From contig NZ_PDZR01000020.1 in the NCBI RefSeq assembly GCF_002891535.1, forward strand, positions 1 through 64,000: 64,000 bases of DNA, in the 5' to 3' direction. Source of the DNA: Methylocella silvestris. Its GTDB lineage: Bacteria > Pseudomonadota > Alphaproteobacteria > Rhizobiales > Beijerinckiaceae. Shown one piece after another: positions 53,556-60,279 of the stretch (positions are counted from its first letter, which is position 1; every line of letters begins with the position of its first letter). Below the pieces are notes generated by a model. The model worked only from the letters and a program-made list of their open reading frames with translations, was not told the origin of the DNA and searched no databases. The translations under genes were made by a program, and so were the position numbers.

Positions 53556-54629
53556 CTAGTTCTTCGCGGCCGCGGCGGCCGAGTCCATATAGGTGGTGAC
53601 GAATCGCAAGCCGATCTTGTTCGGGTCGCCAAACACGGAGCCGTCAGGGAATTTTACGCCGATGACTTCAGCGCTTTTGGCGTTATCGCCCAGCAATCCG
53701 TGCTCGAACAGAAACTCATTGACGAGCTTTGTCGTCTTCGGCAACGCCGCGCCCTTGGCGAAGGCCATGGCGTCGCCCGGCGTGAAGAACATGCGCGTCG
53801 TCTTGAGTTGCGATTCAAACCCGGCGAGATCCGTGCCGGAGGCCTTGCCCATCGCTTCGCGCGCGGCCTCGCCGGCGGGCGTGTTGGCGCTCATGATCGC
53901 CATGGTTTCATACCAGATCCCGGCCAGCGCCTTGCCGAAATCCGGGTTGTCTTCCAGCGTCTTGGTGTTGGCGATGGCAAGGTCCATGATCTCGCCCGGA
54001 ATCTGGCTCGAGTTGAAGACGTTGTGCGCGTCCTTGCGCTTGAGGATTTCCGAGACGATCGGATTCCAGGTTGTGACGGCTGTAACGTCCGGCGTCGCGA
54101 AAGCGGCGGCGATATCGGCGTCGGAGGTGTTGACGACCGTCACATCGCGCTCCTTGAGGCCGATCGAGTCGAGCGCCCGCGCGAGCAGATAATGCGACAC
54201 CGAGAACTGGACGAGATTGATCTTCTGGCCCTTGACGTCCTTGAGGCTCGTCTTGTCTTTCAAGATGACCGCGTCATTGCCGTTCGAGAAGTCGCCGATA
54301 ATCACCGCGGTCGAATCTACGCCGCCGACCGCGGGCACAGCCACGGTGTCCATGTTGGTGACGGTCAGGGCGTCGAAGGCGCCGGCAGTGTATTGATTGA
54401 TCGATTCGACATAATCGTTGAACTGAACGACGTCGATCTTGATGCCGTATTTATCGGCCCATTTCTTGACGATTCCCGTCTCGTCGGCCCATTGCCACGG
54501 CATCCAGCCGACATAGATCGACCAGGCGAGCTTGAACTCTTTCTTCGGCGCGGCGAATGCGGCGTCGGCGGCTCCGAAGAGAAGCGCGGCGCTGAGACAA
54601 AGGGAAATGAGCTTTTTCGTCGGCAACAT
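53556..54629 (-). CDS. ABC transporter substrate-binding protein, NitT/TauT class
   Basis: A 357-residue periplasmic protein with a Sec signal (SLCLSAALLFGAADAAFA) and an NMT1-like body beginning EFKLAWSIYVGWMPWQWADE. ATG at 54629 has ggagg six bases upstream and is preferred to an in-frame ATG at 54641. It is first in the operon, directly behind the riboswitch. It should capture the imported ligand, presumably guanidine, in the periplasm. Confidence 0.9.
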   Translation of the reverse strand: MLPTKKLISLCLSAALLFGAADAAFAAPKKEFKLAWSIYVGWMPWQWADETGIVKKWADKYGIKIDVVQFNDYVESINQYTAGAFDALTVTNMDTVAVPAVGGVDSTAVIIGDFSNGNDAVILKDKTSLKDVKGQKINLVQFSVSHYLLARALDSIGLKERDVTVVNTSDADIAAAFATPDVTAVTTWNPIVSEILKRKDAHNVFNSSQIPGEIMDLAIANTKTLEDNPDFGKALAGIWYETMAIMSANTPAGEAAREAMGKASGTDLAGFESQLKTTRMFFTPGDAMAFAKGAALPKTTKLVNEFLFEHGLLGDNAKSAEVIGVKFPDGSVFGDPNKIGLRFVTTYMDSAAAAAKN

Positions 54630-54647
54630 CCAATCCTCCATTGTGAG

Positions 54648-54679
54648 GGGATTGGCGAGACCATTCTGACGCCAATCCC
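54648..54679 (-). promoter_or_regulatory. Expression-platform hairpin of the guanidine riboswitch
   Basis: In the leader RNA gggattggcg pairs with cgccaatccc around a 12-base loop. The loop contains ggtctc, complementary to the gagacc at the 3' end of the riboswitch, so ligand-bound and unbound folds appear mutually exclusive. There is no U tract after it, and ccccuc just after the stem could pair with the ggagg of the first gene, which points to translational rather than termination control. This is inference from base pairing by eye. Confidence 0.6.
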
Positions 54680-54689
54680 TGACGTCGTT

Positions 54690-54797
54690 TGGTCTCCCGG
54701 GCTTTTGTCCCGCCGTGCCTCCAGCCGATTTCTCCCAGCTGGATCGCAGCTCTCGGACCAGCACCGCAAAAAGCGATCGGAACCCTAGCCGCCTACG
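54690..54797 (-). ncRNA. Guanidine-I riboswitch (ykkC motif, subtype 1)
   Basis: The leader carries the conserved ykkC blocks in order: ctagggttccg, ctggtccgagag, ggcacggcggga and aaaagcccgggaga. The Shine-Dalgarno site of the first importer gene lies about 50 bases downstream. This class binds guanidinium and turns on genes for guanidine export or degradation. Its place here reassigns the whole 45-54.6 kb operon from urea to guanidine use. Confidence 0.96.
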
Positions 54798-58157: not shown

Positions 58158-58186
58158 TTGACATCAGAAGCCGCAGGTTGATTATC
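58158..58186 (+). promoter_or_regulatory. Candidate sigma-70 promoter of the Grr RiPP genes
   Basis: A perfect TTGACA (58158-58163) is followed after 17 bases by ATTATC (58181-58186) in an AT-rich stretch that stands out from its surroundings. Transcription would start near 58193, leaving a leader of about 20 bases containing the gaggggg ribosome site of the precursor gene. Confidence 0.55.
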
Positions 58187-58215
58187 TTACATTAAAATAT
58201 GAGGGGGGCTTGCTT

Positions 58216-58617
58216 GTGCGCAACCGGACTCTAGACGCTCTAACGGTACTCCTGCCTGCCGGCGCTCTCGGCGTCTCTGTGGCGCTGGCCGCGGTTCGCG
58301 CCGAGGCGCTTCCCGTTTCAGGCCAGTCCGCCGCCGCCGGCGCTGTCGGCTCCGACGAAGGCATCGCGGCGCGGCTCAAAGCGATTCGCAATGGCGTTTC
58401 GCAAATCATCGGCGATCAGCCGGACCAGCAGCAAAATATGGTCGAAGGCTACCCGAACGTTCTCAAGGCGTGGTGGGGCAACGGCTGGCGACGCGGATGG
58501 CGCAACGGCGGCTGGCATCCCTGGCGCAACGGCGGCTGGGGCTGGCGCAACGGCGGCTGGGCGCCCTGGCGCAATGGCTGGCGTAACGGCGGCTGGAGGA
58601 ATTGGCGCAACTGGTAA
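58216..58617 (+). CDS. grrA: GrrA-type cyclophane RiPP precursor with W-R-N repeats
   Basis: A 133-residue precursor. The leader has a signal-like hydrophobic segment (ALTVLLPAGALGVSVALAAV), then a helical section (GIAARLKAIRNGVSQIIGD), and the last 48 residues are composed almost only of Trp, Arg, Asn and Gly, with seven W-R-N motifs, most as WRNGGW. It is followed 26 bases later by the maturase. GrrA/OscA-family peptides are modified on aromatic-x-Asn/Arg triads into three-residue cyclophanes. GTG at 58216 has gaggggg seven bases upstream; TTG at 58210 is an alternative. Trp-based WRN repeats are unlike the Gly-Arg-Arg repeats that named the family. Confidence 0.85.
   Translation: MRNRTLDALTVLLPAGALGVSVALAAVRAEALPVSGQSAAAGAVGSDEGIAARLKAIRNGVSQIIGDQPDQQQNMVEGYPNVLKAWWGNGWRRGWRNGGWHPWRNGGWGWRNGGWAPWRNGWRNGGWRNWRNW
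58471..58614 (+). repeat. Coding tandem repeats (tggcgcaacggcggc units) in the RiPP precursor
   Basis: Short units encoding W-R-N-G-G, sometimes with an added H-P, G or A-P spacer, recur seven times. Nearly identical codons (tgg cgc aac ggc) imply recent expansion or slippage. Confidence 0.85.
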
Positions 58618-58643
58618 CCCCACGCCGGGGCCTGGAGAGCGCC

Positions 58644-59846
58644 ATGCTGAATCCGCTGCCAACTGGCCGGCCTGCGCCGATGATCGAAACGGTGGTGGTG
58701 CAGCCGACCCCGTTCTGCAACATCAACTGCCGCTATTGCTATTTGCCGGACCGCAATCAGAAGGCGCAGATGGAGCTGAGCGTGATCACCACGCTCTTTT
58801 CCAAGATCTTCGCCTCGGGCTGGGCTGCGGACCAACTGACCGTCATTTGGCACGCCGGCGAGCCGCTCGTGCTGCCGGTTTCCTATTATGAGACCGCCTT
58901 CCAGGCGATCGAGGCGCTGCGCCCGCCCGAGATCGTCGTTCGCCATGCGATCCAGACCAATGGCATGCTGCTCACGCCGGATTGGTGCGCGCTGTTCAAG
59001 CAATGGGACGTCGGAGTCGGCGTCAGCATCGACGGCCCGCAGGCATTGCACGACGCCAATCGCGTGACGCGCTCCGGACGCGGCACCTTCGCGCAAACCA
59101 TCGCCGGCCTGCGGCTGCTGCGGCGGGAGAATGTGCAGTTCCATGTCATCTCCGTGCTGTCGGCGGAGAGCTTGCAGTCGCCTGAAGCGATGCTTGATTT
59201 CTATCTTGCCGAAGGCGTCGAGGACATTTGCTTCAATGTGGAGGAATCGGAAGGCGATCACGTCTCCGGCCTCTTCGCCGCCGCCGACACGCCGCGCCGC
59301 TTCCGTGAATTCCTCAGCCGCTTCTGGACGCTCGCGCGCCAAAGCGGGCGGGTGCGATTCATCCGCGAGATCGACGACATGCTGGAGCGGATATTCCGGC
59401 CCGAGAGCTGCGGCATGGGCAATGCGCAGGTCGAGCCCTTCAGCATGCTGAATGTCGGCTGTGACGGGTCGACGTCGAGCTTTTCGCCGGAGCTGCTCGG
59501 CCTCAAGAACGCGGCCTATAATGACTTCATCGTCGGCAATATTTTGACGGACTCGCTTGAGGCCATGCTGGCCGGCGAAGCGATGACGGCGATGACGCGC
59601 GACATCGCGGCGGGCGTTGAGATCTGCCGCCGATCCTGCGAATATTTTTCGGTCTGCGGTGGCGGCGCGCCCGTCAACAAACTTTCAGAAAATGGCGGTT
59701 TTTCAAGCGGCGCCACGTCGTTTTGCAAATTGACCGAAATGATCCCCGCCGATCTCGCGCTGGCGGCCTTCGACCAGCTCGAGCGCACAATGGGCGAACA
59801 GGCGCCGCCCACGACCGACATCGCGGCATTGGCGGCGGCCAAGTGA
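58644..59846 (+). CDS. grrM: Radical SAM/SPASM cyclophane-forming peptide maturase GrrM
   Basis: A 400-residue enzyme. The radical SAM cluster motif CNINCRYC has Cys at residues 25, 29 and 32, followed by VIWHAGEPLV and GVSIDGPQALHD. A C-terminal SPASM region holds the auxiliary-cluster Cys residues (ESCGMGNAQ, GCDGSTSS, CRRSCEYFSVCGGG and SFCKL). The GrrM/OscB family links Trp or other aromatic side chains to a downstream residue in three-residue cyclophanes. ATG at 58644 with tggagag upstream is preferred to an ATG at 58602 that overlaps the precursor. The pair is probably co-transcribed and ends at the terminator near 60000. Confidence 0.9.
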   Translation: MLNPLPTGRPAPMIETVVVQPTPFCNINCRYCYLPDRNQKAQMELSVITTLFSKIFASGWAADQLTVIWHAGEPLVLPVSYYETAFQAIEALRPPEIVVRHAIQTNGMLLTPDWCALFKQWDVGVGVSIDGPQALHDANRVTRSGRGTFAQTIAGLRLLRRENVQFHVISVLSAESLQSPEAMLDFYLAEGVEDICFNVEESEGDHVSGLFAAADTPRRFREFLSRFWTLARQSGRVRFIREIDDMLERIFRPESCGMGNAQVEPFSMLNVGCDGSTSSFSPELLGLKNAAYNDFIVGNILTDSLEAMLAGEAMTAMTRDIAAGVEICRRSCEYFSVCGGGAPVNKLSENGGFSSGATSFCKLTEMIPADLALAAFDQLERTMGEQAPPTTDIAALAAAK

Positions 59847-59984
59847 CGTGCGCCGTTTGCGGCTCCAGTGCTGAGTTTGCCGGAGCCCGTCCCCGGTGGA
59901 GAGCCGGGCTCTGTCTAGCTTTCAGTTAGCCGGCGTCCGAGCCCACAAGCTCCGGAAAACCTCAATTCGGACAAAGCCGAGCTC

Positions 59985-60012
59985 CGCATCACGAATTTCG
60001 TGATGCGTTTTC
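59985..60012 (+). terminator. Intrinsic terminator of the Grr RiPP operon
   Basis: A perfect ten-base-pair stem (cgcatcacga/tcgtgatgcg) with an att loop is followed by ttttctc on the plus strand, 138 bases after grrM. The leftward strand lacks a U tract, so it serves the rightward genes. Confidence 0.75.
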
Positions 60013-60045: not shown

Positions 60046-60279
60046 TTAATGCCTGCGCAGACGGTGCGTCGGATAGGCGAGGCGGAACTGGAGATCATTC
60101 CAAAAGTCGGCCTCGGCGATGTCGATCGTCCGCACCTCGGCCTTTTGGGGCTCCGCCTTCTCGGTATGAAGGTCAGCCCAAAGATCAAAGATAGGGGCCT
60201 CGACGACTGCTGTATTGTCTCCAGCCTGCGTGCGCGCAGCGCGGCGGCTGGCGAATTGCGAGAAGTTGATCAGTTCCAT
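60046..60279 (-). CDS. Small uncharacterised protein
   Basis: A 77-residue frame with ATG start; the product is MELINFSQF at the N-terminus, then a basic stretch and an acidic C-terminal part (IDIAEADFWNDLQFRLAYP). It has no membrane segment or known domain. Codon use and amino-acid make-up look coding and the ATG start is plausible. It follows the third GGDEF-EAL gene on the same strand, about 200 bases downstream. I do not recognise a family. Confidence 0.5.
   Translation of the reverse strand: MELINFSQFASRRAARTQAGDNTAVVEAPIFDLWADLHTEKAEPQKAEVRTIDIAEADFWNDLQFRLAYPTHRLRRH

Follow-up and report, generated by a model that had tools for sequence, protein, structure and literature searches.

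The closest described relatives of the cassette reported here are the GrrA/GrrM, or OscA/OscB, triceptides (TIGR04260, TIGR04261, IPR026357), in which a precursor with C-terminal aromatic-x-Asn repeats lies directly upstream of a radical SAM maturase. According to passages of PMC11002830, OscB joins C7 of Trp to the beta carbon of an Asn or Asp at i+2, and C4 of Phe to the beta carbon of an Asn at i+2; the same passages give XncB and YhhB as relatives that make three-residue cyclophanes. NCBIfam likewise names the AmcB, YhhB, FxsB and XyeB maturases as cyclophane-forming. Pathways of two or three genes, encoding a peptide, a radical SAM enzyme and optionally a transporter, are described as common in parts of PMC9062424. 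A resemblance of logistics only extends to the bufferins and oxazolins, MNIO-modified RiPPs whose precursors carry a Sec-type signal within a few-gene cluster (sections of PMC12452194); these differ in their unrelated enzyme and Cys-based chemistry and, for bufferins, in a partner protein with an RRE-type domain. Our literature search on GrrM together with cyclophane returned nothing but unrelated chemistry.

In the window, a 64,000-nucleotide stretch of contig NZ_PDZR01000020.1 (Methylocella silvestris), positions 58158-60012 hold a grrA-grrM cassette that is a well-assigned member of this RiPP family. It shares the repeats and the gene order of the described triceptides and differs from them in a middle motif residue that is mostly Arg in its lineage, and in that a third gene of its near relatives was not found. 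The first-pass annotation had described a compact unit of promoter, precursor, maturase and terminator in under 2 kb, and the coordinates of all four elements hold (Table 1). The two genes lie on the same strand with 26 bases between them. A purine-rich stretch at 58201-58208 precedes the GTG start of grrA, which aligns with the ATG of M. palsarum. Promoter-like sites number three against a shuffle mean of 0.5. For terminator-like sites the figures are two against 2.4, so the terminator call is based on the long stem of the hairpin rather than on the number of sites.

Table 1. Features of the grrA-grrM cassette in window coordinates
Feature	Position	Strand	Basis
Promoter-like site TTGACA-N16-GATTAT	58158..58185	+	Pattern scan; TTGACA also 5' of grrA in G331 and M. 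palsarum (by eye)
grrA, precursor peptide, 133 aa, GTG start	58216..58617	+	TIGR04260, 86.1 bits (cut-off 31), residues 1-130, model positions 1-117 of 118
Signal-peptide-like segment, grrA residues 1-31, A-E-A at end	58216..58308	+	Crude hydrophobicity and AxA test, untrained
grrA leader block AARLKAIRNGVS, A-x-R-L-x-x-I-R-x-x-V-S	58366..58401	+	Conservation in 39 precursors
grrA core, nine aromatic-x-Asn motifs	58450..58614	+	Motif count; pairing predicted from OscB chemistry
grrM, radical SAM peptide maturase, 400 aa	58644..59846	+	TIGR04261, 400.5 bits (cut-off 310), model positions 1-362 of 363
Terminator-like hairpin, then TTTTCTCTC	59985..60007	+	10-bp stem and T-run

To the right, a convergent likely gene (60046-60279, minus strand) without a Pfam or NCBIfam match is followed by a GGDEF/EAL protein; on the left are a DUF1428 gene and a pair of reductase-type genes. 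A periplasmic protein at 53556-54761 was considered as a Grr companion and rejected, since NCBIfam identifies it as a urea-type ABC binding protein. The window genome (99.99% complete, 79 contigs), that of a relative of methanotrophs and treated here as a Methylocapsa alongside M. palsarum, holds one GrrM match. In M. palsarum (L040, 700-5093), genes for a PepSY-like membrane protein, a TonB-dependent-receptor-like and a sigma-factor-like protein follow grrM on the same strand, an arrangement not seen in the window.

A Grr-family, cyclophane-type maturase had been proposed from motifs, and profile searches bear this out: GrrA and GrrM both exceed curated cut-offs, and the best-scoring maturase family is GrrM rather than an unrelated SPASM family. 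The AmcB model comes next at 312.1 bits, short of its cut-off of 425, and the YhhB, FxsB and XyeB models also score the window maturase below their cut-offs. Pfam finds Radical_SAM in GrrM, with SPASM at 16.4 bits against a cut-off of 21.5. The CxxxCxxC motif (C25/C29/C32) and C328, C332, C338 and C361 of the window GrrM are present in all 45 fetched maturases; part of CxxxCxxC was itself required by the motif pattern used to retrieve these loci. The four universal C-terminal cysteines would be more easily reconciled with one full auxiliary cluster than with two. Other cysteines recur in 42 (C115), 37 (C196), four (C256; three Methylocapsa and Streptomyces) and five (C273; three Methylocapsa, L006 and Nostoc) of the 45. 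By sequence, the nearest solved relatives, both distant, are the ChlB radical SAM domain and the anaerobic sulfatase-maturating enzyme, and a structure model of GrrM was poor (mean pLDDT 51.4) and lends no support. TIGR04262, which we took from its name as a substrate-binding companion and which is not known as defining for a GrrA/GrrM system, gave no match over its cut-off in 18 genomes (M. palsarum entered twice). Its weak matches in 16 of these 18 are judged background because 9 of 14 control genomes give weak matches as well, none over the cut-off.

The first-pass annotation counted seven W-R-N motifs in the window core, correctly; one W-G-N and one Y-P-N went unmentioned. The nine pairs are Y79-N81, W87-N89, W95-N97, W103-N105, W110-N112, W118-N120, W122-N124, W127-N129 and W130-N132, and the core contains no Cys. 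An aromatic residue with Asn or Asp at i+2 occurs nine times, against a shuffle mean of 2.4 and maximum of 7 (2000 shuffles), with a slight bias toward higher counts because the start of the core was set at such a motif. Across 39 cores we counted 332 aromatic-to-Asn/Asp pairs at i+2 (shuffle mean 90.3, maximum 114), compared with 19 at i+1 and only 2 at i+3; the counts are not independent, given the related rows and the tandem repeats among them. Distant relatives use F-P-N, F-T-N and W-S-N, among others. The repeats are also conserved in relatives, with 40 of 45 fetched maturase loci carrying an aromatic-x-Asn/Asp precursor directly upstream. Since OscB bridges Trp to Asn at i+2, the W-R-N units are the expected maturase substrate, and the bridge positions in the window peptide are predicted on this basis. 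By the same token, the repeat is less novel than first held, as W-x-N is already the published bridge motif of OscB/GrrM in the passages of PMC11002830 cited above.

The leader of GrrA contains two recurrent features. A signal-like N-terminus had been noted for the window precursor, and a crude test indeed detects a hydrophobic stretch followed by AxA in 38 of 39 precursors; the test is weak given Ala-rich leaders and, in some rows, a scanned stretch without a start-codon boundary. Behind it lies the A-x-R-L-x-x-I-R-x-x-V-S block, in which, among the 39 precursors, the first basic position is Arg in 37 and Lys in 2, the next residue is Leu in 36 and Ile in 3, and the second Arg is kept in 38. 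This block is the probable recognition element for the maturase. Since it lies behind the predicted signal peptidase cut, it would remain on the exported product unless trimmed. Sec export of the GrrA product is plausible. Residues 32-133, the part predicted to leave the cell, would have an average mass of 11,560.6 Da before modification and a pI of 11.8. The original description of the core as cationic and Trp-rich was right. The lack of an obvious exporter had been presented as a novelty. That was overstated, as was the novelty of the small size, given the common two- and three-gene pathways with optional transporters in the parts of PMC9062424 mentioned earlier, and the missing exporter may reflect the signal-peptide-like leader that 38 of 39 precursors carry. 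Sec export is not general in the Grr family, because the precursors of a Rhizomicrobium MAG (L007) and a Nostoc plasmid lack the signal segment.

GrrM was matched in few of the genomes sampled: 3 of 297 at the level of the order, 7 of 199 for the family, 5 of 385 for the class and 2 of 398 for the phylum. These draws overlap, and each includes the window genome. Within the genus Methylocapsa, GrrA occurs in 3 of 15 genomes. In the maturase tree, in which several deep branches are long and flagged unsure, the three Methylocapsa maturases form a clade with that of a Rhodospirillales MAG, L006 (100/100), and this clade is nested within g226 (97/91), a genus of the same class and another order. 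The cassette thus probably came from another alphaproteobacterial order, as judged from these sequence relationships. The same genes neighbor it in the window and G331 and do not flank it in M. palsarum. A relative of the DUF1428 gene is present in three Methylocapsa genomes with the other flanking genes absent within about 6 kb, so an empty site could not be shown. A close-relative search of viral contigs found no relative. In Phaeobacter piscinae, a Grr cassette (L036) lies on plasmid pP18_a, which is typed as conjugative, with a RelE/ParE-type toxin gene some 2 kb away; such a location offers a possible route of transfer.

A conserved third gene of the neighboring lineages is absent here and was overlooked in the first-pass annotation. 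Of 34 maturase loci fetched from the neighboring clade (L006, three genomes of genus g133 and 30 g226 loci), 33 carry this gene, X (about 245 aa), next to grrM, 29 of them in g226. The match to X starts at the earliest 4 bases ahead of the grrM stop and at the latest about 50 bases beyond it, and several loci are cut by contig ends; the sole locus without X (L057) lies at a contig edge with 55 bases left. We counted X by HMM because our crude gene caller missed many X genes. Among the 65 g226 genomes searched, 37 of the 44 that are GrrM-positive (E up to 1e-60; 41 of the 44 over the family cut-off) and none of the 21 GrrM-negative ones have X at E up to 1e-10 (Fisher 2e-11, relatedness ignored). 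Seven GrrM genomes lack such an X match; in six of them the contig stops less than 300 bases from grrM, and the start of X is visible in five of the six. In L006 the gene spans 1308-2045. A second grrA and a second X follow in some g226 genomes, and L048 has two X copies.

The X proteins have a signal-like N-terminus (by eye) and, in six of seven aligned examples and in L006, a CxxC motif; X of L073 lacks both Cys. Two X proteins had no Pfam match at E up to 1; against NCBIfam, one had none and the other a chance-level match (E 0.021, 14 bits against a cut-off of 575). Neither solved structures in the PDB nor plasmids gave a match to X of L006. A search of the window genome at E up to 0.01 gave no match to X, and in the 15 Methylocapsa genomes the sole match was weak (E 8e-4) and fell in a genome without GrrA. 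Candidate relics near grrM in Methylocapsa were dismissed as chance-level tblastn matches (best E 0.097). Farther afield, no X follows grrM within the 516 to 5949 bases covered at the loci of G117, G024, two g325 genomes, Rhizomicrobium, Phaeobacter, Nostoc or Streptomyces. Given X in L006, g226 and g133, the simplest reading is transfer of the cassette into Methylocapsa followed by loss of X.

These neighbors otherwise resemble the window cassette: the Grr cassettes of g226, g133 and L006 share the leader block and signal-like segment, and the core ends W-x-N-W in 32 of the 33 X-clade plus Methylocapsa precursors (the L006 precursor lies off its contig). They differ in carrying X directly 3' of grrM and in their mostly W-H-N/W-G-N repeats. 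Arg occupies the middle position in 22 of the 28 motifs that the three Methylocapsa cores contain. In the 30 X-clade cores it does so in 34 of 263 motifs, most of the others having His (120) or Gly (105) there. Each core carries 9-10 Arg in Methylocapsa versus 0-3 in the X clade, and Methylocapsa cores hold 0-2 His each. Middle-position Arg is therefore specific to the Methylocapsa lineage among near relatives, a point missed at first reading. The three related Methylocapsa cores probably reflect one event, so that loss of X and gain of Arg form a single coincidence and not a correlation. The Methylocapsa cassette thus looks stripped and re-tuned. Within the literature searched, gene X and the Arg variant appear to be the new points here, and X looks undescribed.

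We consider it likely that the locus is a GrrA/GrrM (OscA/OscB-type) triceptide cassette whose leader guides formation of several cyclophane rings on a Sec-exported peptide, and that it was transferred into Methylocapsa and lost X. In the order of steps that we infer, GrrM would bind the GrrA leader in the cytosol, with the conserved A-x-R-L-x-x-I-R-x-x-V-S block as the probable contact. It would then join the Trp of each W-x-N, and perhaps also Tyr79, to the i+2 Asn at its beta carbon. Up to eight or nine three-residue cyclophanes could result, with 2 Da lost per ring. The general Sec system would export the peptide and signal peptidase would cut after A-E-A, delivering a strongly basic product of about 100 residues to the periplasm or the outside, where another protease might cut it later. 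Methylocapsa would have lost partner X, with repeats that are mostly W-R-N as against W-H-N/W-G-N of the X clade. A counter-point is that a Sec signal on a precursor modified in the cytosol requires export to await modification. We know of no biological role for OscB-type products, whose chemistry is published; that the product is secreted and, as a cationic peptide, acts on envelopes or competitors is a guess only.

Other readings of export and function were weighed against the same data. The hydrophobic segment could be only a maturase-binding helix, with an unlinked transporter exporting the cyclophane peptide after leader cleavage. The LLPxGxxGLS stretch does look unusually conserved for a signal peptide among near relatives, and L007 lacks the hydrophobic segment yet keeps the leader block and repeats. 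We nevertheless regard this as unlikely in light of the AxA-bounded stretch in 38 of 39 precursors and because, besides X, no gene stood out as a shared same-strand neighbor on clustering (most loci covering about 1.5 kb per side; some antisense frames remained among the clusters). A role in metal handling would be compatible with the chemistry and export that we favor: a ringed His- or Arg-rich tail would bind periplasmic metal, with X as partner in relatives, much as bufferins do with copper. The Sec-type leader, shared with bufferins in the sections of PMC12452194 noted above, is consistent with such a role, as are His at the middle of 120 of 263 X-clade motifs, the CxxC of most aligned X proteins, the PepSY-, receptor- and sigma-factor-like genes (by eye) after grrM in M. 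palsarum, and a receptor-like gene after X in one g226 genome. A similar receptor adjoins the cassette in just 2 of 39 analyzed loci (crude gene caller; three loci dropped), for which reason TonB-receptor linkage was rejected as a general rule. This count, the scarcity of His in Methylocapsa cores, the missing Cys pair in X of L073 and the lack of Cys in the window core leave metal handling distinctly improbable.

Decay offers another account, in which the transferred cassette makes no working product in Methylocapsa once X is gone. The lack of an X match in the window genome and the detection of GrrA in just three of the 15 Methylocapsa genomes would agree with decay. Against it, the frames are intact in three genomes, and synonymous changes are in excess in both genes (82 synonymous to 36 non-synonymous codon differences from the nearest relative in grrM, 30 to 13 in grrA). 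Most repeat differences between relatives are repeat segments inserted or lost, with W-x-N retained, and TTGACA is kept. Decay accordingly seems to us very improbable. A broader proposal extends the triceptide reading and is doubtful though possible: alphaproteobacterial Grr systems would be an unrecognized class of Sec-exported cyclophane proteins with a dedicated exported partner X, and Methylocapsa, a natural case of the two being separated, would have shed X and have Arg-type in place of His/Gly-type rings. Were this true, ring composition and partner dependence would co-evolve and the role of the product would have changed; it might, for example, have bound metal or a partner before and now be a free cationic peptide.

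What deserves following up is the partner gene of the relatives and its absence from this cassette. The tie between X and the maturase in g226 provides a concrete handle on function, and X-less Methylocapsa a built-in comparison. Since two genes seem to suffice for the Methylocapsa cassette, it could be a simple means of making peptides that bear as many as eight or nine stapled cationic rings, as well as a direct test of whether a radical SAM-modified precursor can exit by Sec.

Other genes near grrM were observed outside the X clade. Proteins of about 260-290 aa are encoded near grrM in Nostoc (L038, 3593-4441), Streptomyces (L037, 5116-5904) and Rhizomicrobium (L007, 6933-7793); those of Rhizomicrobium and Nostoc match each other, that of Streptomyces resembles the Nostoc protein by eye, and the two that were scanned matched no Pfam family over cut-off. 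In two g325 genomes, two other genes (251 aa and about 930-1040 aa) lie directly after grrM at L109 11133-14986 and L102 7133-10665 (the latter read with grrM on the plus strand), the pairs being alike by eye. Finally, the maturase of G761 seems to start with a grrA-like leader start (L014, around 1417), as if a first grrA had been deleted into grrM, and an intact grrA lies downstream of grrM in the same locus.
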